Origin: Clostridia bacterium
Lineage (GTDB): Bacteria; Bacillota; Clostridia; Christensenellales; Borkfalkiaceae
Direction: 5' to 3'
Assembly (NCBI GenBank): GCA_029059705.1
Contig: JAIDVM010000031.1
Span: 1-64,000, forward strand
Length of the DNA: 64,000 nucleotides
The notes beneath the pieces were generated by a model, which was not told where the DNA came from, searched no databases, and saw only the letters and a program-made list of their open reading frames with translations. Below, one piece after another: positions 485 to 32,329 of the stretch. The position numbers and the translations under genes were made by a program. Positions within the stretch are counted from its first letter, which is position 1, and each line of letters opens with the position of its first letter.

Positions 485-3400
485 ATGGCACGGCAAAAAA
501 CGGCGAATTTGGGTCGCCCGCCGTGCGGGGTTAGGGGTATGTTTAATAATTTTAATTGCACGGGCAACGGCTCGCGCAGTATTTTTGGTATACTGCGCAA
601 AAATAAAAGAAATTTGTTGCTCGCTTTTTTATGCGCAGTACTTTCGGTCTGCGCAATTTTTGCATGTTCATTAATGGCGGTCAACAGCTTTGCCAACGCG
701 GAAGAACCGTCCCCCCAAGCGGGTTCAGCCGACGTGGTTTCTTATAGAATAAGCGGCACCTGCGCCCAAATGGAAGCGGGGTGGGTTGCGGCGGTTAAAC
801 GCAGCGTTGAAACAAAATCGCAAGTGAAAATTATTCTTGGCAATGACTGGAATGCGGCAACCCATGCCGACTTCAAAACGGCTTTGGGTACTACAAACGG
901 TTATTTTTCTTATGGCGCAATTTACATAGATACGGGAATGGATATTATAGTCGATTTAAACGGTTATAAGCTTAACCGCGGTTTATCTGCAAGTAATTAT
1001 TATATTAATGGCAGAGTAATATATGCTCATAATGGTAAATTAACCATAGAGGACAGCTCCGAAGCAAAGTCGGGCGCAATTACGGGCGGCGCAACCGGAG
1101 ATGGTGTGACAAATAATTCCTCGCACGGAAACGGCGGCGGAATTTATGTGGCATACGCCACGGTTATTTTTAATTCGGGCAATATTACCGGCAATTCTGC
1201 TAAGCTTGGGGGCGGTGTAGGCAATAGTGTTCAAAACGGCGGCTATTTCATTATGAACGGCGGCTACGTTTCGGGCAATAAGGCTGTGATTGGCGGCGGT
1301 TTACACGGTTATATGAACGTGGAATTGCACGGCGGCGTCGTTTCGGAAAATACTGGCAACGGCATATATGTAGATACTACTTGCCATTTTAAAATGACAG
1401 GCGGCTCGATAATTAATAACACAGGTTCTGGCATACAAGTGCACGTAGGCAATACGGATATGACCATGTCGGGCGGAACCATTTCGGGCAATAGCGGTTG
1501 GGGCATACATGTTACTAACGACAAGGTAGCCGGCAGCTCCACCAGCCCCACGTTCGGTATGACTATTTCGGGCGGTTCAATAACAAACAACAAAGCGGGT
1601 GGCATAACAACTTTGCGCTTGGCGCAATATAAATTTTCGGGTTCACCCAAAATTTATAACAACGGCGGTACGGGCAATCTTGTTATGGCAACTTCAACCG
1701 ACACGGCTCCTGTTATATCGGGCAAGCTTACCACGGGTGCGTATATAGGTGTAACAGGCTTCGCAAGTAACCCCACGGCTCAGGTTTTCGCAACGGGATA
1801 CACGGCGGCGGGCAACGCCGCGGCGGACGTTTCGCGTTACTTTTTTGCAGACAACAAATCTTACAAGATTAATCTTAATGCAAACGGCTCATTGCAACTT
1901 GCAACAGGCGGCACAACTTCAAGCCTTGCAAGCGCTTGGACAACCGCCGTAAACAACAGCGGCACCTTTAAAATGACTTCAAACTGGGTTGCAACCGCAA
2001 ATTCAACCTTTACAACCTCGTTTAACGGCGCAAGCGACACGGTAACCACAACCAGCACGCCTTTTCGCTACGGGGCGCTCAACGTTCCAAGCGGTAAAAC
2101 CGTAACTTTGGACTTAAACGGCTATACCTTAGACCGCGCTCTTACTAAAACACAATCGGAAGGGCGTATAATGACGGTATACGGTACTCTCATAATAAAA
2201 GATAGTTCGGGCAACAACGGCGGAACTATGACGGGCGCTTACAGCACTAATACTAACGGTTCAATATACGTTGCAAACGGTGCAAAATTAACGCTTCAAA
2301 GCGGCACAATTTCGGGCAATACAATTAGGAACGGCGGTGCAGTGGTGATTGCCGGTAACGGCACGTTTACTATGACGGGTGGCGTTATAAGAAATAATAT
2401 TGCGACGACAAACGGCGGCGGTGTTTATTTGGAAAACGGCACGTTTACAATGACGGGCGGCGAAATTAAGCAAAACACCGCAACTTACGATTCTTCTACG
2501 AGTGCGGGCGGTCTTGGCGGCGGCGTTTATCTTTCAAGCGGTACATTATCGTTGTCGAACACAGCTAAAATACACGACAACTTTACAACGACTTCGGTTG
2601 CGACGAGCAACGTTTATTTGCCCTCGGGGAAAACCATAACAATCGGCGGCGCGCTCAATTCGGGCTTTAATGTCGGCGTAACAATGGCGGCGAAAACGGG
2701 CACGTTCACCACGGGCTACGGCACGGCGAACTCCGCAAAAAATCCTTGGGATTATTTCACCTCGGACAACGGCAGTTACGAAGTTTCTTCAACGGGCACG
2801 GGTACCTCTAAGCAGGCGACTTTGGGGCTTTTGATTGACGTGCCTTCCGCGCCTGCGGGCTTGACCTTTAACGGCTCCGTTCAAGAGATAATTTCTAACT
2901 ACAACACGCAATATATTGCGTCTTACACCGTTTCGGCAACTTATGAAACGGGCACGACGAAAACGATTACGGTAACCACGCCCACGGTTGACGGCATGTT
3001 TATTAAGGCGCGCGACGCGGCGGATTACCGCATTACGTTTAAGTTGAAATCGGGCTATTCGTGGAAGACGACGAAAACGGCGGCGGACGTGACCGTTACG
3101 GCGACGATAAACAAAAAGACGATAACGGCGGCGAGCACGGCGGCGAACAAGGTTTATGACGGAACGACGGCTGCGACGGTGACGGTTGGGACGATTACGG
3201 GCAACAGCGACGGCGCGAATTTAACCGTTTCGGCAACGGGCACGTTTGCGGATAAGAACAAGGGCACGGACAAGAACGTGACCGTGGTTTACACGCTTGG
3301 CGGCAGCAAGGCGACGAACTACACCATGGCAAACAAGACCGTTAAGGCGAGCATCACCGCAAAGACGATAACGGGGCTTGCCTGGGCGAACGATGATTTG

Positions 3401-6400
3401 ACTTATACGGGCACGGCGCAAAAGCCGACCGCGACGGTTGGCACGGCGCAAGGGCTTTGCGCGGGCGACACGGCGTTTGCGGCGACTGTGAGCGGCGAGC
3501 AGACTAACGCTTCGGCTTCGGATTACACCGCAACGGCAACCGCGCTTGCGAATTCCAACTATGCATTACCCGCGGCGGGCACGGCGTTTTTGAGCCATAC
3601 TTTCACAATTAAAAAGGCGGAAATTTCGGTAACGTGGAGCACGGCGGCAATAACTTATTCGGGCGCGGCGCAAAAACCGACGGTGACGGGCGTTAATATC
3701 CCCGCAACGGTTACGGGCGGCACCAAACCCGCGGCGGCGAACTTTACTTATACCATAACTGCGGGCGGCACGAACGCGGGCACGGCAAACACCGTTAAGG
3801 CAACGCTTGCAAGCGCGTTTACGGGCAACTTTAAGCTTGTTGCTACGGGCTCGGACGGCGTTGACGCGGCGGGCGAGAGCGTGACGAAAAATTACGAAAT
3901 TAAAAAGGCGCAGCTTACGGTAACCGTAACCCCCAACGCGTGGGTTTACGACATGGCTCCGCACAACATGATTGCGGACGGTTACGACGCAAAAACCGTT
4001 GACAACAAAACGCCCACATTCGGCGGCGGCGCGGCTGTTTGGCGCTATGCAACCAGCACGGACAACGGCGCGACCTGGAGCAGTTGGTCCACGACTATGC
4101 CGCAATTAACCAACGTTTCGCAGGGCAGCACGAAAATTAAAGTGCAGGTAGAGGCGGACAACCACGAAATTTACGAAAGCGCGGTTTTGTCGGTTGTTAT
4201 CACGCCCGCGGACATAACTTCTTCTTCGATTACGCAGCTTGCGCCCGTAACTTACACGGGCGAACCGCAGCCTTTAACGGTAAGCGGCGACAGAAAGCTT
4301 GCTATTTCGATAACCTTTGCAAACGGCAGAACGGAAAACCTTGTTTTGGATAAGGATTACGAAGTAACTTATTCCAACACGAACGGCGGCTCGGGCGACA
4401 GAACCAACGCGGGCACGGTAACCGTTACTTTGCGCGGCAAGGGCAATTACGACGCGACCAAAACGACAACGACGACTTTTGTAATAAATAAAGCTAAGAT
4501 TAATTTGCTTAGCTGGACTTCGCCCGCCGATTTGCATTACAGCGGCACGGCGAAGGATTGGACGGCAGCGGCGGTTTCCACCGCAAACAATATTGCAAGC
4601 ACGTATTTACCCGTTGCGGGAACGGATTTCACCTATATCTACGCGCCCGTTGACGCGGGGCTTGCGCTTGTCGGCGGCAAGGCGGTAAACGCGGGCAATT
4701 ACACCGTAACCGCAGAGTTGAAGGCGGGCTCGGCTTATGCCAACAACTTTGAGTGGGATACTTCGGTTTCCAACGTAAACACCCGCGCGTTTAAGGTTAA
4801 TAAAGCCGTTATCAACGCTGGCGATATCACGTGGGATAACTTAAAGCAGAACTACACCGGCACGGCGTTGCACCCTACTATAAATATGGGCTCGGTCGGC
4901 TACGCCACGTCGGTGGACAGCGCGGCGCAGTTGACTGCTAACGACTTCGAGTACACAACGCAGACAAACGCGGGCGCGAACCAAAGCATAACCGCAACGC
5001 TTAAAGAGGGCGCGGCAAAGAACTTCACTTTCTCGGCGGCAGACGAAGGCTCGGCAAGCATAACCACGCGCGACTTCGAAATCGCGGCGGCTGCGATTAC
5101 TTTAAGCATAACCGACTTGGCGGCGCTTGCGTACATCGGTATTTACGACGGCGAAAAGCACGGCGCGATGAAAAATTACCTCGACAAGGTGGTTTTAAAG
5201 CATACGCGCGACGAAAGCTCGGTTAAGTGGTACTTCACTTACGACAACCTTGGCACGGGCACGGAGGTTTGGTCTAATACCCTGCCCGAGGTTACCAACG
5301 TTTCCGACAGCAGAACAATCCATTTTAAGGTCGAAGCGGATAACCACACCGCCTACATAGGCAGCACGGACATTAAAATTACGCCCAAAGACGTAACCGT
5401 AACCGCCAACAGTATTGCCGTTACGGGCAAAACCTACGACGGCAACGCCAACGTTGCCCATGCGGACGTAGACGTTTCGGGCGTGCAGTTCAGCTGGTAC
5501 CACAGCGGCGACGAGCTGGGCATTGAATTCACGGACGCAACCTACGCCGACAGAAACGCGGCAACAGGTAAAACCGTTACCGTAAGCGGCATTTCGCTTG
5601 TCGGCGCGGCGGCGGGCAACTATAACTTAACCGATACCGCCGCGATTTCCACGGCTACCATTACGCCTTTAAAGGTTGTAATAGAGTGGTACCACGACCA
5701 AATCGACGACGCACACAAGGGCTTGGACGCAAGCTACGAAAAGGGTGTTGAACACGTCGCACTGGCGGTTATCGCCAACAAGAAAAACGCGGCGGATACC
5801 GACAGGCTTGACGTAAGCTTCGTCACCGCCGGCACGGTTGCAATCGACAAAGCAGATTACCCCGTCAGAGTTAATTCCGAAATAACCAACGCAAGCGGCA
5901 ACTACACCTTAGAGGGTGTGGATTTAAGCGCAGTGTTAAAGGTAAAAGGCTCGGGCTTCCTTATTTACAGAGAGGAGGACCCCGAAATTTCCAAGCTCGT
6001 CTACGACGGCACGGAAAAGCTTCCCGTGTTGTACTATACCGATAACGACGGCAAAAAAGTTTATTTAACGACCGCGGCTTACGAAAGCTACACGGTTGTC
6101 AGCACCGACGGCGCCGAGGTTGTCGGCGGCAAGTCGATAAACGCGGGAGCATACAGGGCGACTATCGAGCTTTCGCAAACCTACGACTGGTCGGGCAGCA
6201 TAAGCGGCTCGGCGGATTCGCTGGTGCGCTCGTTCACTTACACCATAGAAAAAGCCACCGTAGCGGGGCTTGCGGTTAAGGGCGAAGACGGCGTAACCGC
6301 AAACGGCGGAAACGTGTTCACCGCAACATATACCAAGGGCAAAGTCCAGATTTTGGGCGCGGATTGGAGCAACATAACCGTAAACGGCACGGCTCTTGCC

Positions 6401-9400
6401 AACCTTTCCGAAGACGTTAAAAACGCTTTCTTCAACGCAGACGGCAGCGTTAAGGGTATTGAAGCGGTCGTTTATTACGACGGCACCACGGCCCAGCGCG
6501 AAAACGCAAACGAAAGCGGTTACGCGGTGGAAGTCCGCTTTAACGTAAACGGCAACTTTAACGCAATAAGCTCGCTTTCCGCAACCCTTATAATCCTTCG
6601 CAGAGAAGTAGACATAAGCGGCGCGGCGTTCCAGGGCGACGGCTTTACGGGGCTTACAACGGCGTACGACGGCAGCTTTAAAAAGGTAAAGGTTGTGGGA
6701 CTTCCCGAAGGAGTAACCGCAAACATTACCTATTACTTAGGTACCGAAAGCAAGGGCACCGACGGCGTTCAGGCAATAGGCAACTACACCGTCAGGGCAA
6801 CCTTCAATTACGACAGCGCAAACTACAAGCTCGTTAATACGGCGGGCGGCAGCGAAATAACCGTAATAGACGACGCTCTTAAAATTACCGCAAAGGGCAT
6901 AGATTTAAGCGGCGTTCAGTTGGTCGGCGACACTACGGGCACGGGCGGCATAACCTATGACGGCAGCGTTCACAAGGTAATCGCGGCAAACGTTCCCGAT
7001 GGCGTAACGGGCGTGGAATACGTTTATAAAAAGAACGGCGAAGAGCTGGCTGCCGAAGGCGTTAAGGACGCGGGCGAATATACGGTTGAAATTACGTTTA
7101 AGGTCGACCCCAACTACGGCGACGACGTAACCGCGCACGCGGAAATAAGAATTAATCCCGCGCCTTTGACCATAACGGCAAACGACGTAACGGTAAGCTA
7201 CGGCGACGCGCCCACGGATAACGGCGCAACCTTTACGGGGCTTGTCAGCGGCGACGGCGCAAGCTTGTTCACGCTCGCTTACGAATACAAAAACAAGCAG
7301 GGCGGCAATTACGACTTCTATGCGGGCGTAGGCGAATACGTGGTGGAAGTAAGGGTTGCTTCAAGCTCCACCGACAACTACACGATAACTTCTGAGGCGG
7401 GCAAACTCAACGTTAAAAAGCGCGAAATAAAGGTAAGCTGGCAAAACTCTTCAACCGACGGCAACACCTCGTTCGAATACGTTTACAGCGGTTCCGAATT
7501 CAAGCCCTATGCAAGGGTAACCAACGCCGTCAACGGCGACGTTCTTACGCTTGTAATAAGCGGCGGTCAAACCAACGCGGCACTCAACTGCGTGGCAAAA
7601 GTCGTTGGTATTACGGGGTTAAAGGCTGATAACTACGCCCTTCCCGTGGTTGATTTAACGCAAACCTTCAACGTTTTACCCAAGCCCCGCACGGGCGTAA
7701 TTGTCTGGGACGAAAGCGAATATTATTACAACGGTCAGGCGCAGGCTCCCAAGGCTTACTACTTTGAAAACGAAACGGACAGAGTTCCCAAGGAGCTTAC
7801 CGTTACCACAAACGTAAGCGCGGTCGGCGTGGGTAAATACACCGCAACGGCTTCGCTTGGCACAAATTACGATTTGAAGGGCGAAACCACAAAAGAATTC
7901 GAAATCAAGGCGCGCAAAGTATTCATCGAAATCGACGACGCCTCGGTTAAATTCAGCAACGACATAGATTTAAGCGTGCTCACTTGGAGCTACGTTGCGG
8001 GCAGCGACGAATTCGTCAGCGGCGACGCATACACAATCAGCTTCGACTGCGGCAGCATTACCGCAAAGGGCAAATACGCAATCGTCGGCAAATTCACTTC
8101 CAACAACGCTAAAAATTACGAAGTAAGCTTCGTCGGCAGCTGGATTAGCCACGACGACAAAAACGGCAGGTGCGGCACCTTAACCGTAACCGAAGGCACC
8201 TACGACGTAAACGGCATAACCTTTACGGGCACGGAAGTAACCTACGACGGACAGCCGCACGGCATAACCGTAAAGGGCTTGCCCGAGGGCGTTGAAGTTG
8301 CAAGCATAACCTACGTCAAGGACGGCAAAATTTACGCCGCCGAGGACGTAATAAAGGTGGGCGAGTACACCGTTGAAATAACCTATAAGAGCACGAACCC
8401 CAACTTCACCGCGCTCACGGGCGCTACGGCAACGCTCACAATCAAAAAAGCGGCGCTCACGGTTAAGGCAAACGACAACACCATAACCTACGGCGACGAA
8501 CCCGTTTCGGCGGGCGTAAGCTATTCAGGCTGGGTAAACGGCGAAAGCGAAGCGTTAAACGGAATTATTTCGGGCGCGCTGCAATATGTTTACACCTATG
8601 CAAAATACGGCAACGTCGGCAGTTATAGAATTGACGTAGTCGAAGGCTGCATACTCTCCGAAAACTACGAAATAACGTTCATTCCCGGAACCTTAACGGT
8701 TGTTGCAAGGGAGCTCAGCGTAGAATGGTTTAAGGACGGCAACCACAACGCCGACGAATTAAAGTATATCTACGACGACGGCAATCCCGCTAAGGAATAC
8801 GCTCCCGTAGCGGTAATTATGGGCGGCGTCGTAAACGGCGACAGCGTAAGCGTAACCGTAAAGGGCGCGCAGAGCAAAATCGGCGTAAACTATACGGCAA
8901 CCGCAGTAACCGACAACGCAAATTACGTTGTAAGGGCGGCGGACGCAACCGTTAAGTTCAGCGTAATCCCTTCGGCTAAGTATACCGTAATCTGGGACAA
9001 CAGCGAAATTACTTACAACAAGTCCGAGCACAAACCCGCGGCAATTTACTTTGACGAGGCGGGCAACCAACACGCGGTCGACCCCGAAAACGTAATAATA
9101 ACCTCGGGCGACGGCGTAAACGCGGGCAACCACGTTGTAAGCATAAAGGCGGGTACAACCGCACAGGACGGAAAACCCCTCACGTGGGAAGCGTTCGGTT
9201 ACGAAATTCTTCCCGCAAAGGTTACGGTGCAAATCGCACCCGCAACTTCTACGGTAGAATACGGCAAAGTGCTTGCGTGGAAGGACGCGCTTGGCTCTGC
9301 CGACTGGACTGTAACAAGCGGAACCGTTTACGGCGGCGACAGCCTGCAACTCACCTTTAAGGTTGCGGCGGACAATTCGTCGGGTGTAGGCGTTTACGCG

Positions 9401-12400
9401 GTAACCGCCGAAAGCGGCAACAATAACTATTCGGTAACCTTTATCGACGGCACGGTAACAGTTGAAAAAGCGGAAGTCGTAATGAACGCCGCGGTAACGG
9501 GCGCGTTCGGCACAACTCCCGTAGTGCATACCGCAGGTTATAACGGCGCAACGCGCGAGGTTAAAATTTCGGGCGAACTTCCCGCGGGTATTACGGGCGT
9601 AAGCTACGAATATTACCTCGGCGGCAAGCTTATAAGCTCTTACGGCGTAAAGAACGCGGGCGAATATACCGTAAAGGCAATATTCACCACCGACGGCAAC
9701 CACAAGGTAACGGGCGAATATACGGCAACGCTTAAAATAACCGCAAAGGCGGTCGGCAGCATAACCATGCCCGCAACCAAAACGGTTACCTACGACGGGC
9801 TCGCGCACGCATTGCTTTTAAGCGGCGACAGCGAAGCGGTTAAGGAAGTTAAATTCACTTACACGGGCGCAAAATACGGCGCGGTAACCGAAGCCGTAAA
9901 CGCCGACGTTTACACCGTAACCGCCGTAATATCCTTCAACGAAAACTACGACGCAAGCGGACTTGCGGGCTATAACGCGGCAACGGGCGAAGTAACCTTA
10001 ACGGGCACGCTCACCATAAACAAGGCAACGCTCACCGTCAAAGCAAACGACGGCTCGGCGGAATACGGCGAGGCGGCTAAGACCTACGGCTACGAAATTA
10101 CGGGCTTTGTCGGCGGCGAAAGCGCGGCTGACGAAAGCGTGATTAAAGTAACTAACGTAACCTACGGCTTTAACACGGGCAAAAACGTTGCCGGCACCGA
10201 CGCGGGCGAGTATAAAAACGAAATCACGGTTACGCTTTCGTATACTTCAAACAACTACGAAGTAGCTTACGCAACCGTCGGCGGCACGTATACCGTAACT
10301 CCCAAAACGATAAACTCGGCGGACGTAACGTGGTACGACAAAGAGGGCGGCACGGCAGGCGTAGAGTTTACTTATAACTACGACAACGGCAAAACGTTCT
10401 TGCCCGTGGCTGTTTACAAGGACAGCGGCATAACCTTGGTCGTAAGCGGCGCGCAGAGCGTTGCGGGCGACAACTACACCGCTAAAGTAGTGGATATTAC
10501 GGGGGCAAACGCAAAAAATTACGCCCTTCCCGTAGTCGATATAAAGGTAAGCTTCAGCATAACCAACGAGCCCGTTGTGGAATACGAGGTTATCTGGGAT
10601 AACGTAACCCATGTTTACGACAACACGGAATATAAGCCCACGGCTTACTATTACGACGGCAACGCCAAGGTTGAAATTCCGGCGGGCGACATAACCGTTT
10701 CGGGCGGCAGCGCAATAAACGCGGGCACTTATACCGCAAGCGTAAACGCAAACCTAAACGGCAAAACGCTTACAAACACGTCCATGGCGTTCACCATTTC
10801 CAAGCGTTCCGTTTATATAAGAATAAGCGACGCTTCCTCGCGCTACGGCGAAACCCCCAACATGGGCGCGGTAAGCTGGAAGTACGAATATGCAAACGAC
10901 GCCGAAAGGCAGTTCCTTGCGGGCGAAAAGTACACGATAACGTTCACCTGCGGGGCAACCTCTTCAAGCTCGGTCGGCAAATACGCAATCAGCGGACACT
11001 TCGTTTCGGGCAACGCTAAAAATTACGACGTAATCTTCGTCGGCAGCTATGTTTCGGCAAACGCAGCCGAAAACGGCAAGTTCGGCACTCTTACGATAGA
11101 CAAAGCCGTTTACGATATGACAAAGGTCACCTTCGTTGGCGTTGAAGTAACCTACGACGGACTTGCGCACGGCGTAACGCTCAGCGGACTTCCCGTAGGC
11201 TTGACCGCGGATAATTACGAATGCACCTATGCAAGCGCAAGCGGCTGGAGCGTTGCGGGCGCGGTAAACGCGGGCGTATACAACGTAACCGTAACCTTCA
11301 AGGGCTTGGATACCGAAAACTACGAACCCGTTGAACCGCTTACGACAACGCTTACCATAAAGAAAGCTTCGCTCGTAATCACCGCAAACGACCACACGGT
11401 AACCTACGGCGACGCGGCTTCGGCAAACGGCGTAAGCTACGTCGGCTTTGCAACGGCAAACGGCGTAACCGAAACCGAAAGCGTGTTAAAGGGACAGCTT
11501 ACGTTCGCTTACAGCTATACCAAGGGCGACAGCGCGGGCAGCTACCGCATCACGCCTTCGGGACTTAGCTCCGACAACTACGAAATAACCTTCCGCGCGG
11601 GCACTTTAACCGTCGATAAAAAGACGGTAACCGTAAAATGGTATTACGACAGCACCCGCGGCGACCAGCCCCTCGAATACAGATACGACAACGGCAAACT
11701 TTTCGCGCCCGTGGCGGTGGCGGAAGGCTTGCTTGCGGGCGACAGCGCGGAAATAACCGTTAGCGGCGCGCAGGGCGCGGTAGGCGTAAACATCACGGCA
11801 ACCGCAAGCGCAATCAGCAACCCCAACTACAAATTGCCCGCGGACGGCAGCGAAAAAACTACGTTCAGTATTCTGCCCACGCGCGACAACTACGTAATCT
11901 GGGATAACACGCGCTTCGTTTACGACGCAACCTCGCACAAGCCCACGGCGTTCTATATCGACGCAAACGGCGTTCAGCAGCCCATTCCCGCAGATAAAAT
12001 CAGCGTGGACGGCGGCGATGCTATCGACGCCAAGGAAGGCTATTACCTTGCGGCTATCGACGAGGTTTACTACAACAGCCTCAATCTTGCGGGCGACAGA
12101 CAGTTCAGGTTCTACGTCGACCCGCTCGAAATAGAAATAGAAATTCTCGGGCAAACCGCAACCTACGGCAACGTAAGCGGCGCGGCGCAAAACGCGTGGA
12201 AGTACGCGGGCGCAAACAAGTTCCTTGCGGGCGTAAATCAACCCATACCCGCAGGCTCCACGCTCGAATATCTCAATTTCTTCGCGGAAGTCGGCAACCA
12301 AACGCCCATAGGCGAATACGCAATTACCCTTGTCTGCGGCAGCGGCAATTACAGGGTAACTTACGTCCGCGGCACGCTCACGATAACCAAGGCGACGGTG

Positions 12401-15400
12401 CAGATGACCGAAGCGGTTACGGGCGTGTTCGATAACGGCACTACGGCAAGCGCGGCCAACACGCATAACTACAACGGCCAGACCTTTAAGGTTGAAATCA
12501 CGGGCGAGCTTCCCAAGGGCATAACAGGCGTAAGGTACGAATATTACCAAAACGGCAAGCTCGTGTCCGCTAACGGCGTGCGCGAAGCGGGCGAATATAC
12601 CGTAAGGGCAATCTTCACGGTAGACGGCAACTACAACGAGATAACCGAAGAATACACGGCTATCCTCAAAATAACGCAGGCGGAAATAGACATCAGCGGC
12701 GTAACGTTCGACGCAAACAAAACGCTCGTTTACAACGGCGGGCAGCAGCCCGTGTTCGTAATGGGCGACGCAATAGGCGTTGAACGCGTAGACTACGACT
12801 ATTACGAATACAGCGAAAGCGCAACCGACCACCGCGGGGCAAAGCTTAACGGCTATCCCCAAAACGTCGGCAAATACGTTGTAATCGCAAAGTTCGTCGC
12901 GGCTGAAAACTACACCGCAAACGGCGCGCAAAAGGAAATGGTTCTGGAAATAACGAGGGCGGAGCTTACCGTTGTCATTACTAACAAAACCACGGTTTAC
13001 GGCACGGCGGCACCCGCGCTCGGCGCAAACGATTACACCGTTTCGGGGCTTTTGGGCGCCGACGACAAGAGCGTAATCGGCTCGTTGTCGCTCTCGTATG
13101 AAAATTACGGCGGCGCTTCGGCGGACGCAAAGTCTTACGTAATTTCCGCAAGCGAAGGCGCGGCGTTCAACGTTGCCAACTATTCGGTAAAGGTAATTAA
13201 CGGCACGCTCACGGTAACCGGATACTTCATTAACGCAAACGAAGTTAAGTGGTACGACGACAACAGCGGCGCAAATTTACAAACCTATATTTACAGCTAC
13301 GACGGCTCGGCTCACACGCCTTACGCGGTTGCTATAATCAACGGCACAACCGTTGAGCTTACCGTTGCGGTAAGCGGCGGCGACGGCGTATCCGTTGGCA
13401 GCTATCTTGCAACGGTTACGGGCGCAAGCGGCAACGCAAATTATGAGGTCGCGGCGGATATCAACTGCGCGTTCGTAATAATGCAGCAGCCCCCCGTAAA
13501 CTACGAAGTGGTTTGGACTAACACGCAGTTCGTTTACGACGGCCAGCCGCACGTTCCCACGGCAAGCTATTTCGACGGAACTTCGATAGTAACCGTAGAC
13601 CCCGCCGACGTTACCATAAGCGACGGCAAGGGCGGCACGGCGGCAATCAACGCAGGCGAATACACCGCAACCGTAACGGTTGAAGGCAATACCGTAAGCA
13701 CAACGTTTACCGTATCTCCCAAAAAGGTTTCGGTAATAATAGGCGAAGTTCAAACCGTTTACGGCACGGCTCCCGATTTAAGCAACGTAAGCTTTGATTG
13801 CGACGGCGCCGACAGAGCCAACATAGAAGCGGATATCCGCTTCGTCTGCACGGTTCCCGTAACCGCAAACGTAGGCACCTACGCAAACGCTATCGAGGGC
13901 TACTACCCCGCGGGCGGCAACTACGAAGTTATATTCACAAACGGCGCGCTGCGCATAAGCAAAGCCCGCCTCGATACCTCCGGCATAGAGTTCGAAGACG
14001 CAACGGTAACCTACGACGGCAAAAAACACGCGGTAACGCCCACAAGCTTACCCGCAGGTTTAAGCGCTCATGTTTCCTATTACACCAGCGAAAGCGGCTG
14101 GAGCTACGATATCGACGGCGTAAGTGCGGCAGGCGTTTACACGGTAACGGTTGTTCTCGTGCTTGACGAAAGCATAGCGGGCAACTACGAACCGGTAACG
14201 GGCATGACGGGCACGCTTAAAATCAATCCCGCAATCTTAACCGTTACGGCAAAATCCAACGCGATAACCTACGGCGAAGCTCCCGCACCGCATGCGGACG
14301 GCGTAACCATAACGGGCTTCGTAAACGGCGAGGACGTAAGCGTTCTCAAAGGCAAACTCGATTATGCCTTCAACTACAACGTTGGCGGCAGCGTCGGCGC
14401 CTACAGCATAACGCCTTCCGGCTTGCATGCCGACAACTACGAAATTAAATTCGTAAGCGGCGTTTTAACGGTAAACAAGCGCGTTGTAACCATCAGCTGG
14501 TACAAGGACAGCAGCCTGTCCGAAAGCGGCGAATTCCGCTATACCTACGACGGCGCAACCGAATTCAAACCCCACGCAGTGGCGGGCAACCTCTACGGCA
14601 ACGACAGCGCGTCGCTCACGGTAAGCGGCGGACAAATCAACGCGGGGCTTAAATATCTTGCAACCGTAACCAAAATTTCCAACAATAACTACGCGTTGCC
14701 TTCCGACGGCAGTCAAAGCGTAAGCTTCGATATTTTGCCGAGGAGCAACGTAATAGTCTGGGAGAACACGGAGTTTATCTATAACGGGTTAAGGCAGGCC
14801 CCCGGCGCGTACTATTTCGACGCCGACGGCAAACAGCAGCCCTTAACCGTAACGGTAAACGGCTATCCCCAGCAGGCGGGCGAATACGTTGCAACCGCAA
14901 CCGCTCCCGCGGGCGTAACTCTCACGGGCGACACTACGAGAAAGTTCGTAATCAAGCCCAGGGAAATCACAATCGAAATCCTTTCGGTAACCGAAACCTA
15001 CAAGCGTTTGCCCCAGTTCGACCAAAGCGGTTGGAGGTACGTAGGCGACGCAACAATTACCGACGGCAATTACATCAGCCTTATTTGCCCCATCACCTCG
15101 ATGATAGACCCCGACGCGGGCACTTACCCCATAACAGGCGTATGCACCAGCAGCAACTACAAGGTAACGTGGATTAACGGCACTTACACTATAGTCCGTC
15201 AGGAAATCCCCGTTCCCGCTCCCGCAAGCAAGGCGTACACGGGCGCAACGCTCGTTGCCGATTTGGAACACAGCGATATGTACAGCGTAATCCAAAACCT
15301 TGGCGGAGTTGCGGTGGGTAAATACGCGGTAACCTTCGCGCTCAACGCGGCGTATGCGCGCAACTACAAGTGGGCGGGCACCGAAGAATACTACATCACG

Positions 15401-17707
15401 GTAGACTTCGAAATCACCCGCGCAGTCAACGAGTTTACAAAGCCCTTCGAAATGAACTGGACGGTAGACACCGCCGACACTACTTTGGGCAAAAACGAAC
15501 CCGAAGCTGCGTTCGGCACTCCCGTAATCGCATTCTATTACGACGAAGGCTGCACGCGCGTTGCCGAAGAAAGCTACATCTTAGGCTCGGCAACCCCCGG
15601 CATGACATTCTGGGTAAAGGTAACCGTAGACGGCACCGAAAACTACACGGGGCTCGAATTCAAGCACTCGATACTCATAGTAGGCGACAGGGCGCTCGCG
15701 CTCAATTGGGAAACCTTCTCGGCGGTTTACGACGGCCGCGAACACGCTCCCAAAGCTTACGTCAATATCGAAGGCAGAAAGGTTTACTTAAAGGTAGAGG
15801 TAGACCGCAAGGCTGTTCACGCGGGCGAATACACCGCAACGGCAATATTCGAAGCGGAAGACGGCACAAGCCTCGAAGGCTACAAGCTTCACGAAGGCGC
15901 GCCCTCGGCGGATAAGGAAATAAGGTTTACCATTTCCCCTTGCGAAGTGCGCGTGGAAATAGGCGACATTTTAGACAGAGTTTACGGCACGCCTTTCGTA
16001 AACGCGGATATGCTTCTCAGCAAAAACGTTTACGGCACGGTGGTTGCGGGCGACAATCTCGGCATTAAATTTACCACCGAGTTCACCGAAGTAAACGGTT
16101 ACGTTCCCGTTGGCAAATACGCAATTACGGGCAGCTGGAACAACACCGACTACAACGTAATCTTCTTCGGCAATTGGGAAGGCGACGAATTCCACCAGGC
16201 GCAGACTGCGGGCGTATACAGCGTTATTCCCGCGGACATAACGGTTAAAAAGTCGGGCAGCGAATGGTTCGACCAGGACGACGTTTACGATAAAAACCAG
16301 CCCTCGCTCGTATCGCTTGCAAAGCGCAACGACGACGACACCGAATACGTAAACATTGCCTTAAAGGGCGACAAGAGCGCAAAAGCCACCATAACCTACA
16401 GCTTCCTTTACGAGTACGACGACGGCAAGGTTATGACCGACGAAATGATTAAAAGCTTCATCGTCGAAGGCAACACTGCAGTGCCCGAAATAAGGCAGGC
16501 GGGCGATTGGGTAATCTATTACCGCATAACCGAACAAAACCACAACGTAAAATACGGGCAATGGGTGGTAAGAATCCGTAAAAACACCGAATTCATAGTG
16601 GTAAGCTTTAAAAAGGCGTTCACCACGCAATACGGCGACACGGTATTCGGCACCGACTTAATGCCCCAGCTCATTGATACCGAAGGCAACAGCGAATATT
16701 TAGAGCTTGGCAACGGCTTAGAGGGCATTACGTTATTGCAACTTCGCAAAATCGCGCGCGCTTACGCTTACGAAGACGTAACAAGCAACATGGGCTTCGT
16801 CGGCAGCAGCACGGCGGCAGGCAAGTATTGCATAAGGTTTGTAATCCGCGACGAATACGCCGAAGAATACGACGGCGTTGAGTTCAAATACAGCGACAGC
16901 AACGACAAGGCGGACACCAACCTCGACAAATACGAAGTAACCCGCCGCGAATTAACCCTCGAATGGGGCGAAACGTCGTTCACCTACGACGGCGCGGGGC
17001 ACGTTCCCACGGCAACGCTCAAAGGGCTTGTCGGCGGCGAGGCGGTCGAACTCAACAACATCGTTTTGGGCGAAGCCAACACCTTGCAGCTTAAAAACGG
17101 CGACGTAATGAACGTAACGGTAAGCCTTTATCAGGGCGCAAACACTTCAAGCGCGGGCGCGTTCATTTTAAGGGCCGAGATAGACAACGCCAACTACGAG
17201 TTAAAGCTCGGCTCAATCGTAACGGTAAACGTTGCAAAGCGCGCCTTGGAAATCGTTTGGGGCGAAACCTCGTTTAATTACGACGGCGCAAGCCACATTC
17301 CCACCGCAACCATAAAGGGCTTCGCGGGCGGCGAAGAAATTACCTTAAACGATATCGTCATCGGCGAAGTAAGGGAAATAACCCTTTCAAGCGGCGAAGT
17401 CGTTAAAATCCGCGTAACGCTCATCAGCGGCAGCGACACAACAAACGGCAACTATGGCTTAAGGGTAGAAGTGGTAGACAGCGGCGATTACGAGCTGCAA
17501 AACGGCTCGGTAATAACCGTCACCATCACCGATAACAGCAAAGTGGCGCTTCCCAACTGGGCAATCTACGCAATAGCAGGCGCGGCGGCGTTTGCAGTAC
17601 TGCTGATAATAATCCTTATAGCGGTACTTAAAAAGCGCAAAAAGGCGCAGCATGCTGTTGAAGGCTTAATCGACGAAGACGGCTTCATGGACGATTACGA
17701 AGGCTAA
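485..17707 (+). CDS. Giant cell-surface repeat protein (5740 aa): N-terminal signal/TM, beta-helix blocks, MBG/YDG-type Ig-like repeat array, C-terminal TM plus basic tail
   Basis: Single uninterrupted ORF; hydrophobic LLLAFLCAVLSVCAIFACSLMAVNSFANA near the N-terminus; repeated TMTGG.I..N.A..GGG motifs; more than 20 YDG/YNG-type motifs; C-terminal WAIYAIAGAAAFAVLLIIILIAVLKKRKK. Start uncertain (ATG 485 or ATG 539; neither has a strong SD). Confidence 0.9.
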   Translation: MARQKTANLGRPPCGVRGMFNNFNCTGNGSRSIFGILRKNKRNLLLAFLCAVLSVCAIFACSLMAVNSFANAEEPSPQAGSADVVSYRISGTCAQMEAGWVAAVKRSVETKSQVKIILGNDWNAATHADFKTALGTTNGYFSYGAIYIDTGMDIIVDLNGYKLNRGLSASNYYINGRVIYAHNGKLTIEDSSEAKSGAITGGATGDGVTNNSSHGNGGGIYVAYATVIFNSGNITGNSAKLGGGVGNSVQNGGYFIMNGGYVSGNKAVIGGGLHGYMNVELHGGVVSENTGNGIYVDTTCHFKMTGGSIINNTGSGIQVHVGNTDMTMSGGTISGNSGWGIHVTNDKVAGSSTSPTFGMTISGGSITNNKAGGITTLRLAQYKFSGSPKIYNNGGTGNLVMATSTDTAPVISGKLTTGAYIGVTGFASNPTAQVFATGYTAAGNAAADVSRYFFADNKSYKINLNANGSLQLATGGTTSSLASAWTTAVNNSGTFKMTSNWVATANSTFTTSFNGASDTVTTTSTPFRYGALNVPSGKTVTLDLNGYTLDRALTKTQSEGRIMTVYGTLIIKDSSGNNGGTMTGAYSTNTNGSIYVANGAKLTLQSGTISGNTIRNGGAVVIAGNGTFTMTGGVIRNNIATTNGGGVYLENGTFTMTGGEIKQNTATYDSSTSAGGLGGGVYLSSGTLSLSNTAKIHDNFTTTSVATSNVYLPSGKTITIGGALNSGFNVGVTMAAKTGTFTTGYGTANSAKNPWDYFTSDNGSYEVSSTGTGTSKQATLGLLIDVPSAPAGLTFNGSVQEIISNYNTQYIASYTVSATYETGTTKTITVTTPTVDGMFIKARDAADYRITFKLKSGYSWKTTKTAADVTVTATINKKTITAASTAANKVYDGTTAATVTVGTITGNSDGANLTVSATGTFADKNKGTDKNVTVVYTLGGSKATNYTMANKTVKASITAKTITGLAWANDDLTYTGTAQKPTATVGTAQGLCAGDTAFAATVSGEQTNASASDYTATATALANSNYALPAAGTAFLSHTFTIKKAEISVTWSTAAITYSGAAQKPTVTGVNIPATVTGGTKPAAANFTYTITAGGTNAGTANTVKATLASAFTGNFKLVATGSDGVDAAGESVTKNYEIKKAQLTVTVTPNAWVYDMAPHNMIADGYDAKTVDNKTPTFGGGAAVWRYATSTDNGATWSSWSTTMPQLTNVSQGSTKIKVQVEADNHEIYESAVLSVVITPADITSSSITQLAPVTYTGEPQPLTVSGDRKLAISITFANGRTENLVLDKDYEVTYSNTNGGSGDRTNAGTVTVTLRGKGNYDATKTTTTTFVINKAKINLLSWTSPADLHYSGTAKDWTAAAVSTANNIASTYLPVAGTDFTYIYAPVDAGLALVGGKAVNAGNYTVTAELKAGSAYANNFEWDTSVSNVNTRAFKVNKAVINAGDITWDNLKQNYTGTALHPTINMGSVGYATSVDSAAQLTANDFEYTTQTNAGANQSITATLKEGAAKNFTFSAADEGSASITTRDFEIAAAAITLSITDLAALAYIGIYDGEKHGAMKNYLDKVVLKHTRDESSVKWYFTYDNLGTGTEVWSNTLPEVTNVSDSRTIHFKVEADNHTAYIGSTDIKITPKDVTVTANSIAVTGKTYDGNANVAHADVDVSGVQFSWYHSGDELGIEFTDATYADRNAATGKTVTVSGISLVGAAAGNYNLTDTAAISTATITPLKVVIEWYHDQIDDAHKGLDASYEKGVEHVALAVIANKKNAADTDRLDVSFVTAGTVAIDKADYPVRVNSEITNASGNYTLEGVDLSAVLKVKGSGFLIYREEDPEISKLVYDGTEKLPVLYYTDNDGKKVYLTTAAYESYTVVSTDGAEVVGGKSINAGAYRATIELSQTYDWSGSISGSADSLVRSFTYTIEKATVAGLAVKGEDGVTANGGNVFTATYTKGKVQILGADWSNITVNGTALANLSEDVKNAFFNADGSVKGIEAVVYYDGTTAQRENANESGYAVEVRFNVNGNFNAISSLSATLIILRREVDISGAAFQGDGFTGLTTAYDGSFKKVKVVGLPEGVTANITYYLGTESKGTDGVQAIGNYTVRATFNYDSANYKLVNTAGGSEITVIDDALKITAKGIDLSGVQLVGDTTGTGGITYDGSVHKVIAANVPDGVTGVEYVYKKNGEELAAEGVKDAGEYTVEITFKVDPNYGDDVTAHAEIRINPAPLTITANDVTVSYGDAPTDNGATFTGLVSGDGASLFTLAYEYKNKQGGNYDFYAGVGEYVVEVRVASSSTDNYTITSEAGKLNVKKREIKVSWQNSSTDGNTSFEYVYSGSEFKPYARVTNAVNGDVLTLVISGGQTNAALNCVAKVVGITGLKADNYALPVVDLTQTFNVLPKPRTGVIVWDESEYYYNGQAQAPKAYYFENETDRVPKELTVTTNVSAVGVGKYTATASLGTNYDLKGETTKEFEIKARKVFIEIDDASVKFSNDIDLSVLTWSYVAGSDEFVSGDAYTISFDCGSITAKGKYAIVGKFTSNNAKNYEVSFVGSWISHDDKNGRCGTLTVTEGTYDVNGITFTGTEVTYDGQPHGITVKGLPEGVEVASITYVKDGKIYAAEDVIKVGEYTVEITYKSTNPNFTALTGATATLTIKKAALTVKANDNTITYGDEPVSAGVSYSGWVNGESEALNGIISGALQYVYTYAKYGNVGSYRIDVVEGCILSENYEITFIPGTLTVVARELSVEWFKDGNHNADELKYIYDDGNPAKEYAPVAVIMGGVVNGDSVSVTVKGAQSKIGVNYTATAVTDNANYVVRAADATVKFSVIPSAKYTVIWDNSEITYNKSEHKPAAIYFDEAGNQHAVDPENVIITSGDGVNAGNHVVSIKAGTTAQDGKPLTWEAFGYEILPAKVTVQIAPATSTVEYGKVLAWKDALGSADWTVTSGTVYGGDSLQLTFKVAADNSSGVGVYAVTAESGNNNYSVTFIDGTVTVEKAEVVMNAAVTGAFGTTPVVHTAGYNGATREVKISGELPAGITGVSYEYYLGGKLISSYGVKNAGEYTVKAIFTTDGNHKVTGEYTATLKITAKAVGSITMPATKTVTYDGLAHALLLSGDSEAVKEVKFTYTGAKYGAVTEAVNADVYTVTAVISFNENYDASGLAGYNAATGEVTLTGTLTINKATLTVKANDGSAEYGEAAKTYGYEITGFVGGESAADESVIKVTNVTYGFNTGKNVAGTDAGEYKNEITVTLSYTSNNYEVAYATVGGTYTVTPKTINSADVTWYDKEGGTAGVEFTYNYDNGKTFLPVAVYKDSGITLVVSGAQSVAGDNYTAKVVDITGANAKNYALPVVDIKVSFSITNEPVVEYEVIWDNVTHVYDNTEYKPTAYYYDGNAKVEIPAGDITVSGGSAINAGTYTASVNANLNGKTLTNTSMAFTISKRSVYIRISDASSRYGETPNMGAVSWKYEYANDAERQFLAGEKYTITFTCGATSSSSVGKYAISGHFVSGNAKNYDVIFVGSYVSANAAENGKFGTLTIDKAVYDMTKVTFVGVEVTYDGLAHGVTLSGLPVGLTADNYECTYASASGWSVAGAVNAGVYNVTVTFKGLDTENYEPVEPLTTTLTIKKASLVITANDHTVTYGDAASANGVSYVGFATANGVTETESVLKGQLTFAYSYTKGDSAGSYRITPSGLSSDNYEITFRAGTLTVDKKTVTVKWYYDSTRGDQPLEYRYDNGKLFAPVAVAEGLLAGDSAEITVSGAQGAVGVNITATASAISNPNYKLPADGSEKTTFSILPTRDNYVIWDNTRFVYDATSHKPTAFYIDANGVQQPIPADKISVDGGDAIDAKEGYYLAAIDEVYYNSLNLAGDRQFRFYVDPLEIEIEILGQTATYGNVSGAAQNAWKYAGANKFLAGVNQPIPAGSTLEYLNFFAEVGNQTPIGEYAITLVCGSGNYRVTYVRGTLTITKATVQMTEAVTGVFDNGTTASAANTHNYNGQTFKVEITGELPKGITGVRYEYYQNGKLVSANGVREAGEYTVRAIFTVDGNYNEITEEYTAILKITQAEIDISGVTFDANKTLVYNGGQQPVFVMGDAIGVERVDYDYYEYSESATDHRGAKLNGYPQNVGKYVVIAKFVAAENYTANGAQKEMVLEITRAELTVVITNKTTVYGTAAPALGANDYTVSGLLGADDKSVIGSLSLSYENYGGASADAKSYVISASEGAAFNVANYSVKVINGTLTVTGYFINANEVKWYDDNSGANLQTYIYSYDGSAHTPYAVAIINGTTVELTVAVSGGDGVSVGSYLATVTGASGNANYEVAADINCAFVIMQQPPVNYEVVWTNTQFVYDGQPHVPTASYFDGTSIVTVDPADVTISDGKGGTAAINAGEYTATVTVEGNTVSTTFTVSPKKVSVIIGEVQTVYGTAPDLSNVSFDCDGADRANIEADIRFVCTVPVTANVGTYANAIEGYYPAGGNYEVIFTNGALRISKARLDTSGIEFEDATVTYDGKKHAVTPTSLPAGLSAHVSYYTSESGWSYDIDGVSAAGVYTVTVVLVLDESIAGNYEPVTGMTGTLKINPAILTVTAKSNAITYGEAPAPHADGVTITGFVNGEDVSVLKGKLDYAFNYNVGGSVGAYSITPSGLHADNYEIKFVSGVLTVNKRVVTISWYKDSSLSESGEFRYTYDGATEFKPHAVAGNLYGNDSASLTVSGGQINAGLKYLATVTKISNNNYALPSDGSQSVSFDILPRSNVIVWENTEFIYNGLRQAPGAYYFDADGKQQPLTVTVNGYPQQAGEYVATATAPAGVTLTGDTTRKFVIKPREITIEILSVTETYKRLPQFDQSGWRYVGDATITDGNYISLICPITSMIDPDAGTYPITGVCTSSNYKVTWINGTYTIVRQEIPVPAPASKAYTGATLVADLEHSDMYSVIQNLGGVAVGKYAVTFALNAAYARNYKWAGTEEYYITVDFEITRAVNEFTKPFEMNWTVDTADTTLGKNEPEAAFGTPVIAFYYDEGCTRVAEESYILGSATPGMTFWVKVTVDGTENYTGLEFKHSILIVGDRALALNWETFSAVYDGREHAPKAYVNIEGRKVYLKVEVDRKAVHAGEYTATAIFEAEDGTSLEGYKLHEGAPSADKEIRFTISPCEVRVEIGDILDRVYGTPFVNADMLLSKNVYGTVVAGDNLGIKFTTEFTEVNGYVPVGKYAITGSWNNTDYNVIFFGNWEGDEFHQAQTAGVYSVIPADITVKKSGSEWFDQDDVYDKNQPSLVSLAKRNDDDTEYVNIALKGDKSAKATITYSFLYEYDDGKVMTDEMIKSFIVEGNTAVPEIRQAGDWVIYYRITEQNHNVKYGQWVVRIRKNTEFIVVSFKKAFTTQYGDTVFGTDLMPQLIDTEGNSEYLELGNGLEGITLLQLRKIARAYAYEDVTSNMGFVGSSTAAGKYCIRFVIRDEYAEEYDGVEFKYSDSNDKADTNLDKYEVTRRELTLEWGETSFTYDGAGHVPTATLKGLVGGEAVELNNIVLGEANTLQLKNGDVMNVTVSLYQGANTSSAGAFILRAEIDNANYELKLGSIVTVNVAKRALEIVWGETSFNYDGASHIPTATIKGFAGGEEITLNDIVIGEVREITLSSGEVVKIRVTLISGSDTTNGNYGLRVEVVDSGDYELQNGSVITVTITDNSKVALPNWAIYAIAGAAAFAVLLIIILIAVLKKRKKAQHAVEGLIDEDGFMDDYEG
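760..2840 (+). repeat. Two tandem right-handed beta-helix-like blocks inside the giant protein (about 760-1900 and 1912-2840)
   Basis: Both blocks follow the order W..AV...., VDLNGY.L.R/LDLNGYTLDR, I.DSS...G, then G/N/T-rich TMTGG..I..N rungs and a SYE/YKIN...L closing segment. Confidence 0.65.
7706..14761 (+). repeat. Higher-order tandem repeat within the giant gene, period about 2.9 kb (about 965 aa)
   Basis: The VIWDN..YVYD..H.P-type module Trp codon is at 7706, 8993, 10595, 11900, 13514 and 14759; spacings 1287, 1602, 1305, 1614 and 1245 nt alternate short/long. Confidence 0.8.
16952..17530 (+). repeat. C-terminal tandem pair of about 98-aa repeats
   Basis: LTLEWGETSFTYDGAGHVPTATLKGLVGGEAVELNNIVLGE... 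followed by LEIVWGETSFNYDGASHIPTATIKGFAGGEEITLNDIVIGE...; Trp codons 294 nt apart. Confidence 0.85.
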
Positions 17708-27109: not shown

Positions 27110-27211
27110 AACTTATAAGCGGAATTTAGCTTTGTGCATAATTTATGAATATTTATTTATACAAAACGCCGCAAAACGCTGTTGACGGTTTGCGGAAAGG
27201 CAGGAGCAGTA

Positions 27212-30200
27212 ATGAAAAATTTGTTTAAAAAGGATAAAAACACCGAAACGAGCGCAGTGGACGCGGAAAAGAGCGTTGTGCCCGAAGGCGTAAACGGCAA
27301 CAACGCGTCGGCAAAATCGAAATTGAAACTCGACAAGAGAATGATTTTGATAATCTGCGCGGCTTGTCTTGCGTTTGTTTGCGTGGTGCTTGCAATTGTT
27401 TTGCCCATATGCCTTACGGGCGGCGAGGGTGAGTATTTTAAGCTTAAATACGACATTCCCGACGGCGTTATTATAGAAATCGAAAACGAGGACGGCGCCG
27501 GCATCAGCAGCGGCTGGGAAGTTAAGGGCGGCGTAAACGTAAGCTTTAAGCTTGCTTACGAGGCCGAACACGAAGGAATTCCCGAAGTTGAGATAAACGG
27601 CAAAACAGTAAAAGCCAACGGTGAAGGCGTTTATTCCTTTACCATGAATTCGGACACCACGATTAAGGTTACGGGCGTTTTCGTTAAAAGAGAATATCAG
27701 GTAACCTTCGACGGCGGCGCAGACGGCTGGGTTCGCTATTCTTCGGCTGATTACGACCTTTCCAAGCCTATCTCGGTAAGGGGCGGCGTGCAGGTAACCT
27801 TTGACGTTTCGGTAAGCGTTTATTACAAGCAAAGCGGGTATACCGTGCTTGCCAACACGGTTGTTGTGAAGCCCGATGAACAGGGGCACTATACCTTTAC
27901 GGTTATAGGCAAAACCACCGTTTCGGTAATCAACCTCAAGCAGGAAGACCCCTTCTCGGCAAGAGAGCGCGAGAACGGCACGCTTTACACCGACGGCGAC
28001 GGCACGAGGGCAAACCCTTACAGAATAAGAAAACCCATCGACCTTTACGCTATGGCCGATTTAATCGGCAACGAATTTTATGCCGGCGCGAATTATCAGA
28101 TGGCTTATTACCGTCTTGAAGAAGATATCGATATGGAGGGAGAGCGCCTTTATATAATAGGTGACGGCTTTTCTACGAGCTCTTCCGTGTTTGCGGGCAA
28201 CTTCGACGGCAACAACAAAACCATATCCAATTATTATATAGCGGACGAAATTATAGAGCAATCGGCGTTCACCAAAGTGTTTACGCCCTTCCTTGGCTTG
28301 TTCGGCGTTGCAACCGCAACAAATTACGGCGCGGCTGAAATTTACGATTTAAACCTTAAAGACTTTAAAATGGAAATTTCACACGCCGACAAAACGGCTT
28401 TCTTTGCAGGCGGTTTGGTTGGCATGGGCTCGGGCGCGGCTATTACGAACTGCTCGGTGCAGGGTGAAATTATAGCCTATGCGGGCGAGGACCCTTACAG
28501 GGTTACTCTCGGCGGCGTTGTCGGCTATCTCAATTCGGCGGTTACCAACAGCGGCTCGTCCATTCCCGCTTATATCCGCTCCTGCTCCGCGGACGTGAGG
28601 ATAGACGGCAGGGCAGGCTTTATCGAAAGCATCGGCGGCGTTGTCGGCAACCTTTATTCTTACGACGCGCTCACACCCGCATACGTTTTAAACAGCTATT
28701 CCACGGGTGACGTAAACGGCGCAATAAGAACGGGCGGTATCGTCGGTTCGTTAAACGAGTACAGCTCGGTTAAAAACTGCTATGCAACGGGCATAGTGGA
28801 AGCTAAAAACGAAGCGCTCGGAATTATCGACGACAGCGTAAGCAACGCATATGCGGGCGGTATTGCGGGTTATGCCGAATACGGCGCGATAATTTCGGAC
28901 AGCTTCTCTGTGTGCGAGATTTACGCTTCGGCAATAAAGGGTGCCGCATACGAGATAACGGACGGCATTGCCGCTTACGTAAAGACAAGCGGCGCAATCC
29001 CCGCGGGCGCATATCACGCGCTTGTGCTCAATTCCTATTCAAAGGCAAAAACTGTTTACGGAAAGCAGGAAAGCAATATTAACGACGGACTTATTCAAAA
29101 CACGTTGCTTTGGGATAATGTGGACTGGACTTTTAGCGGTCAGCCCGGCGAATATCCTTCGGTAAACAAGCAAATCGTATCAAAAACGTTTACCATAACC
29201 GTAAACTTCGGCAACACTCACACGGTTGGCGGAAGCCGCGACTATTCGCGCAGATTAACCGACGTTTATTCCGATATGGCGGGGCTGTACGGCGGCGTAT
29301 ATGTTGGAAATAACATTGTCAGCATCGACCAGTATCTCGATTCCGACACGGCGGGTTACAGAACTTACGGATATTACTTCGACGCGGACCATACGCAGAG
29401 AATACCCAATTCCTACGTTCCCACGAGGGACATGACTATTTACGCCGAGTTTGTTAATTATAACGAGGTGGCGGGCAGATATTACGTTCAGAACGGCGTA
29501 AACGGCAGCGCAAGCTATATCGATTATCAATACAATAACCAAAACGGCACTGTCACTTACGGCGTTAAAACCCCCATGGGCAAGAGCGCGTACGTCGAGC
29601 TTGACCTTAAGGGCAACTTAATTTACCGCAACGGCGTAATCAGCAACAAAGCGACCTATTATTACAACGGCGAATCTTTGATACTCGAGGGCGTTTACGT
29701 GTTCTTCGAGGATACGCAAACGGGAGTGGACGCCGAAACGCAGCAGCCTGAGGTAATGTCGGAAACGTATTATCTTAATTTAATCGCGGTTAAAAACGGC
29801 GTAAACCTCGATATGTATAACGGTTCGGTTTATTCAAGCTCCAAACCGTTAAAGGCGATTAAGCAGCTTAACGGCTTTAACTACGGATATTATTACAGCG
29901 GAAATACAACCTATCTTTTCAACCCCGACATGACGGGTGTAAGAACGGAAGGTACGACGACCACAAACTTTAATTATTCCGTAAACGGCAACACGATTAA
30001 CACCGACGGCGTGGGTAATCTCAGTCTTTCTTCGCTCACGGCGTTCGACCCTTATTTCGGCACGTGGGAAAAATCCGCGGGCAGCAACAAGCAATACACC
30101 TTTGACGGTAAGGGCGGCTACACCTACGAAGAATTCGGCTATAAGGCTAACGGCGAAAAGCAGGTTTATAATTCTGCCAAAGGCTCGTATACTTCGGGTT

Positions 30201-32269: not shown

Positions 32270-32329
32270 AAATTTTAATAAACGATTTACGGAACAAAAG
32301 TATACACACACGGAATGTACGGAGGTTTT

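Follow-up and report, generated by a model that had tools for sequence, protein, structure and literature searches.

A probable ancient block duplication behind the 11-domain super-repeat of a giant protein in a Clostridia bacterium

Composite repeats in described giant proteins

Titin and nebulin are textbook examples of proteins with multi-domain super-repeats, and here we describe a bacterial case, P25, a protein of 5740 amino acids (aa) that carries a super-repeat of 11 small beta-domains. It is encoded in a 64,000-nucleotide stretch of DNA, the window, from a Clostridia bacterium of the family Borkfalkiaceae (assembly GCA_029059705.1, contig JAIDVM010000031.1, positions 1 to 64,000 of the forward strand). 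Duplication of blocks of several domains, often in mid-repeat, is the usual route by which repeats expand (PMC1553488), and the C-zone of the titin A-band has 11-domain super-repeats whose end copies differ from those in the middle (PMC10665226). P25 is like the titin C-zone in its 11 domains per super-repeat, in recursive block duplication, in its differing end copies and in that domains one super-period apart are more alike than neighbors. However, its domains are of MBG and YDG kinds rather than FnIII and Ig, it belongs to a different kingdom, and it has about 3 copies rather than 11. The titin period, moreover, matches a binding filament, whereas no comparable partner is known for P25. We claim no homology, and the shared number 11 is, as far as can be told, a coincidence. 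Nebulin likewise expanded by a fixed block of several domains, but in this muscle protein the repeats are short and unrelated in kind, and the period is seven (PMC1553488).

Among bacterial proteins, P25 resembles the fibrillar adhesin-like proteins (PMC8286594, PMC9210967) in being very long and in its tandem stalk domains, which belong to the same Pfam kinds; an export signal and a membrane anchor are further features of that class and are predicted for P25. The stalk domains listed for fibrillar adhesins include MBG and YDG (PMC9210967), and with 33 tiled domains of these kinds in 5740 aa P25 fits this class in size and in its tandem stalk region. Typical stalks, however, are described as repeating one or a few domains, and P25 is without LPxTG. 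Periscope proteins such as Sgo_0707 and SasG (PMC8201768) present a rod-like tandem array on the bacterial surface, as P25 may do, and in SasG the repeat is itself a composite of two domains (E-G5). Periscope repeats have at least 80% identity and differ in number from strain to strain, whereas the units of P25 share 29-42% identity in protein and 47-54% in DNA, so that P25 falls outside this class by repeat identity. Surface proteins of 3,000-8,000 aa are also known from Apilactobacillus kunkeei (Giant1-5; PMC12863079) and Mobiluncus mulieris (PMC10619420), and in Giant1-4 an N-terminal beta-solenoid precedes a repeat rod, an order that P25 probably shares; these proteins, in contrast, have helical or Ig-like repeats, simple periods and other domain families. 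We found no bacterial protein with a super-period this long in the open-access papers searched. An 11-domain super-repeat in what is presumably a gut bacterium, conserved while six giant proteins diverged and shifting its copy number in whole blocks, offers an independent, prokaryotic system for asking if such blocks persist because they serve a function (period, ligand spacing or avoidance of misfolding between neighbors) or are a relic of repeat duplication.

Layout of the array and alternation of its units

The array occupies aa 2040-4908 of P25 (window 6602-15208), half of the protein. Its 33 domains, all of MBG/YDG type, follow one another without a gap as FG-[ABCD-E-ABCD-FG]2-ABCD-E-ABCD. 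The super-period is 11 domains (5 + 6), or 955-978 aa, with two domains (F and G) in long units where short units have one (E). Profile comparison relates A to D (98.7% probability, YGX type), B to C (97%), and E, F and G to one another (>99%). MBG_2 (YGX type, PF18676) matches P25 at 143.1 and 85.2 bits against a curated cut-off of 25 and is present in 26/26 units scanned. The parts of the array are as follows.

6602..7165, + strand: F0-G0 pair opening the array (module tiling)
7166..8455, + strand: unit 1 (odd), A-B-C-D-E (module tiling, unit tree)
8105..8206, + strand: D module of unit 1, insert-bearing end (NAKNYEVSFVGSW...) (motif search)
8456..10030, + strand: unit 2 (even), A-B-C-D-F-G (module tiling, unit tree)
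8456..11371, + strand: one complete super-repeat of 11 domains, ABCD-FG-ABCD-E, used for AlphaFold2 modeling
9479..9757, + strand: F module with GELPAGITGVSYEYY (motif search, tiling)
10031..11371, + strand: unit 3 (odd), A-B-C-D-E (module tiling, unit tree)
11012..11116, + strand: D module of unit 3, insert-bearing end (NAKNYDVIFVGSY...) (motif search)
11372..12964, + strand: unit 4 (even), A-B-C-D-F-G (module tiling, unit tree)
11372..14236, + strand: next 11-domain super-repeat, same frame, 38% identical to the first copy
12401..12688, + strand: F module with GELPKGITGVRYEYY (motif search, tiling)
12965..14236, + strand: unit 5 (odd), A-B-C-D-E, D insert lost (module tiling, unit tree)
14237..15208, + strand: unit 6 (even, terminal), A-B-C-D, an orthologue of the last unit in all relatives (unit tree, support 98/94)

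An earlier, sequence-only reading had described a higher-order repeat from 7706 to 14761, marked by tryptophan codons at alternating spacings. All of its positions hold, and in-frame TGG codons stand at 7706, 8993, 10595, 11900, 13514 and 14759 precisely as it claimed, but the array is longer than it proposed. The motif GELPxGITGVxYEYY, which it confined to about 9571 and 12502, occurs only at 9572 and 12503, and NAKNY[ED]VxFVGS, the insert that it assigned to two units, only at 8105 and 11012. The third odd unit, unit 5 (C landmark 13514), is without the D-module insert. The alternation of units is borne out by ungapped self-comparison of P25, in which offsets of one super-period dominate far above chance: offsets of 953-977 aa lead, with best 60-residue scores of 209 and 190, against 118, 108 and 102 at the adjacent-unit offsets of 429, 538 and 525 and a maximum of 58 in a shuffled copy.

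Two paralogues of the same layout lie in the genome, P39 (6075 aa, G000:C39:49132-67359) and P36 (6455 aa, G000:C36:109261-128628). Relatives occur in 2/93 further genomes of the genus (G022, G075), and one more in a genome (G347) that belongs to a different family within the order. The family set comprises six giant proteins with 38 units, three proteins from this genome and three from others. All six follow the string XX[ABCD-X-ABCD-XX]n-ABCD-X-ABCD-(X)-CD, with n=2 except in one protein, where n=3, and keep a super-period of 916-978 aa. Six units are present in 5/6 proteins, and P36 has eight, exactly one extra super-repeat; a change of copy number by a single unit was seen in 0/6. The G347 contig (L090; G347:C18, CATLHE010000018.1) is only 15 kb long and consists almost wholly of one copy of the giant open reading frame (ORF). 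It may be mis-binned, as little else lies on it, or may have been transferred.

Evidence that the block is old comes from trees of units, built from concatenated ABCD modules. A single branch separates odd from even units among 26 units of four proteins (support 100/97), and among all 38 units the two kinds again lie on opposite sides of one branch (99/99; bootstrap and Shimodaira-Hasegawa-like approximate likelihood ratio test). The split appears in 98% of bootstrap trees, with 0/500 label shuffles as low, and it persists without the D module (ABC gives 96) and with module A alone (83). Trees of single modules require 1 phase change for A and 2 for D, compared to 9 with shuffled labels. By identity, too, odd/even is the best of the ten possible splits into three and three within every one of the five proteins that have six units. 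Units one super-period apart thus cluster before adjacent ones in both unit trees, the outcome predicted by the sequence-only reading, and its proposal that a composite multi-module block was duplicated is supported. The D insert is present in 16/19 odd units and 0/19 even units, and its loss in unit 5 is common to P25, P39 and the closest relative, S347; at the 70% level there are no phase-diagnostic residues apart from this insert. As split and insert span all six proteins, the block existed before they diverged, and its duplication predates that divergence.

The DNA points to the same antiquity. Tandem Repeats Finder, at its default threshold and with periods up to 500, detects no tandem repeat, so similarity at the DNA level is low, and units only 47-54% identical in DNA mark the duplication as ancient. 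Synonymous differences among the units of P25 amount to 0.55-0.69 per site, near saturation. Between P25 and S347 (74% aa identity), the ratio of nonsynonymous to synonymous rates (dN/dS) is 0.06-0.16, an approximate value as dS is near saturation; units 1 and 6 change least, and the array is under purifying selection. Copies of this age make rapid allelic length change unlikely, although an extra super-repeat is present in one paralogue.

Origin and role of the array

We propose, with a probability of roughly 80%, that an ancient duplication of an 11-domain block gave rise to the stalk of a membrane-anchored, fibrillar adhesin-like protein. Duplication of the composite block (ABCD-E-ABCD-FG), within a giant surface protein, would have preceded the divergence of the six proteins. 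Its copies would then have been altered by point mutation and by small insertions or losses, and one paralogue would have gained, or the others lost, exactly one further block. The array, a string of about 33 small beta-domains of MBG/YDG kind, would act as a long stalk that sets an N-terminal beta-helix region at a distance from the cell, and one transmembrane helix would keep the C-terminus in the membrane. The layout, the phase split, conservation and purifying selection are shown by our data, whereas location at the surface, the role as a stalk and binding through the N-terminal region are inferred. The features outside the array that bear on this proposal are the following.

485..17707, + strand: ORF of the giant putative surface protein P25, 5740 aa, a single open frame with a C-terminal hydrophobic segment and tail, and with paralogues and orthologues of the same layout
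611..700, + strand: hydrophobic N-terminal segment, aa 43-72, with a long basic leader, a probable export signal (read from the translation)
1103..1522, + strand: parallel beta-helix-like region, aa 207-346, a candidate binding region (Beta_helix PF13229, 23.1 bits, just below the 25.9-bit cut-off)
5381..5641, + strand: YDG domain 5' of the array, aa 1633-1719 (PF18657, 84.9 bits for the protein piece)
15698..16240, + strand: diverged C-D pair 3' of the array, found in 6/6 proteins (module parsing)
17558..17629, + strand: C-terminal hydrophobic segment, a probable transmembrane helix (read from the translation; GG_III-CTERM match below cut-off)
17660..17704, + strand: acidic C-terminal tail EGLIDEDGFMDDYEG, common to the family (comparison of family C-termini)

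Non-periodic YDG/MBG domains also lie outside the array. At the C-terminus (ALPNWAIYAI...KKRKK...IDEDGFMDDYEG), the hydrophobic segment is followed by KKRKK and the conserved tail, and no LPxTG-type sortase motif was found near this end.

The AlphaFold2 model of the 11-domain segment is all-beta, with a mean predicted local distance difference test (pLDDT) score of 76.8. The folds of the domains may be fairly trusted but their arrangement may not. Several observations weigh against our proposal. The predicted template modeling score (pTM) of this model is 0.33, and neither the placement of domains nor a rod shape is given by it. No known adhesive Pfam domain was found with confidence in P25, the beta-helix match falling just short of its cut-off, and we know of no function for MBG domains in proteins of other taxa. 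With respect to phase, modules B and C alone fail to recover the odd/even split (3 and 6 changes), and the signal within P25 by itself is modest, at 2 percentage points of identity; it is decisive only when relatives are included.

A different account of the interior of the array deserves serious weight, and we would place it somewhat short of even odds. Here, interior super-repeats were amplified or homogenized within each lineage, only the first and last units are orthologous, and the similar copy number is partly convergent. Unit 1 forms one group across all six proteins (90/77), as does the last unit (98/94), and these terminal units are orthologues throughout the family. Interior units tend to group within lineages, such that in P25, S347 and P39 units 3 and 5 (92/76) and units 2 and 4 (74/30) are nearest to each other. 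The F modules behave similarly: those of P25 (units 2 and 4) are 57% identical to each other versus 51% and 46% to their P39 counterparts, and the P39 pair shares 64%. F modules thus seem homogenized inside each of these two proteins, possibly by local gene conversion. Duplication in mid-array is also common (PMC1553488). Nevertheless, the units of P25 and P39 pair position by position, strictly so for modules other than F, and approximately unbiased (AU) tests of one group per position do not settle the question (p=0.04-0.12 for position 3, 0.08 for 5, 0.16 for 4 and 0.52 for 2). An AU test of P25 units 1 and 2 as one group gave rejection at p=3e-51, but is uninformative because each unit has a very close orthologue. 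We claim the block duplication with confidence and no particular order of interior events.

Alternative roles for the array fare less well. P25 could be a structural coat or scaffold protein, S-layer-like or part of a matrix, whose 11-domain period matches something periodic. The strict conservation of the period would fit, and Foldseek neighbors include the S-layer proteins Sap and SbsC beside cadherins, contactins and adhesins. However, Foldseek matches generic strings of beta-domains of any sort with a TM-score of about 0.1, which is unspecific, and three divergent paralogues in one genome and a family found in 3/94 genomes of the genus are unlike a coat protein, so we think this role unlikely. 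Quite doubtful, too, is the idea that the 11-domain block is a functional unit selected whole, a bacterial ruler or scaffold of fixed period with a binding site fixed per block. If it were true, copy number would set reach or ligand number in whole-block steps, and the period might be some 40 nm with domains extended as in titin.

It is improbable that the array is a simple ABCD-X tandem in which alternate units are alike through selection tied to the one- or two-domain junction or through gene conversion between units i and i+2. Neighboring domains in large proteins are generally dissimilar, possibly as a guard against misfolding (PMC8201768, PMC1553488), and module C alone has little phase signal; yet phase is carried jointly by A, by D, by ABC without D, by an insertion and by junction type, and all six proteins show it, including the one with an additional full block. 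An artefact of assembly, or an unstable expansion of recent date, is a very unlikely source of the array, to the point of being negligible, for although the assembly that contains the window is a draft of 41 contigs, copies this divergent in DNA and nearly saturated at synonymous sites form no DNA-level tandem array, and the layout recurs in separately assembled genomes.

C-terminal tail, gene neighbors and other large proteins

A tail of the form [DE]GFx[DE]xY, at most 10 residues from the end and preceded by a transmembrane helix and a stretch rich in Lys and Arg, closes four giant MBG proteins of the genome (window 17660-17704; G000:C36, C39, C4). The motif has three other matches in the genome, none at a C-terminus after a transmembrane helix. 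Similar acidic tails close giant MBG proteins of other genomes, and the tail may be a signal for sorting or anchoring. Close to its C-terminus, P25 has a domain that is duplicated 98 aa apart (window 16964-17555; WGETSFTYDGAGHVPTATLKG and WGETSFNYDGASHIPTATIKG), with 76% identity over an 82-nucleotide stretch of DNA. Two copies were also parsed in S347 and one in P39.

A gene neighborhood shared by the giant genes was looked for and not found, as judged by reading, with a profile check of the window ORFs only. Their neighbors include ApbE/Rnf genes, a P-type-ATPase-like ORF, a phage-like stretch, an integrase-like ORF and glycine-cleavage-like ORFs. A phage origin was considered and set aside, one weak phage match being all that was seen, and plasmid matches proved to be ordinary MBG proteins.

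Large proteins of related composition occur elsewhere. In the genus, a 2655-aa ORF (L079; G075:C7) is a simple three-domain A-C-X tandem of the same domain types with a period of 248 aa, showing that simpler arrays of these domains exist there. An MBG-rich protein of 8080 aa (L080/L081; G091:C1) ends in a dockerin-like sequence (DLNGDGAVTAADITAIGNYI). Near P25, the window encodes further very large surface-type ORFs, namely, a 1695-aa GLUG protein (27182-32269) and a 2449-aa subtilase with BspA-type leucine-rich repeats and a C-terminal transmembrane segment (32315-39664).

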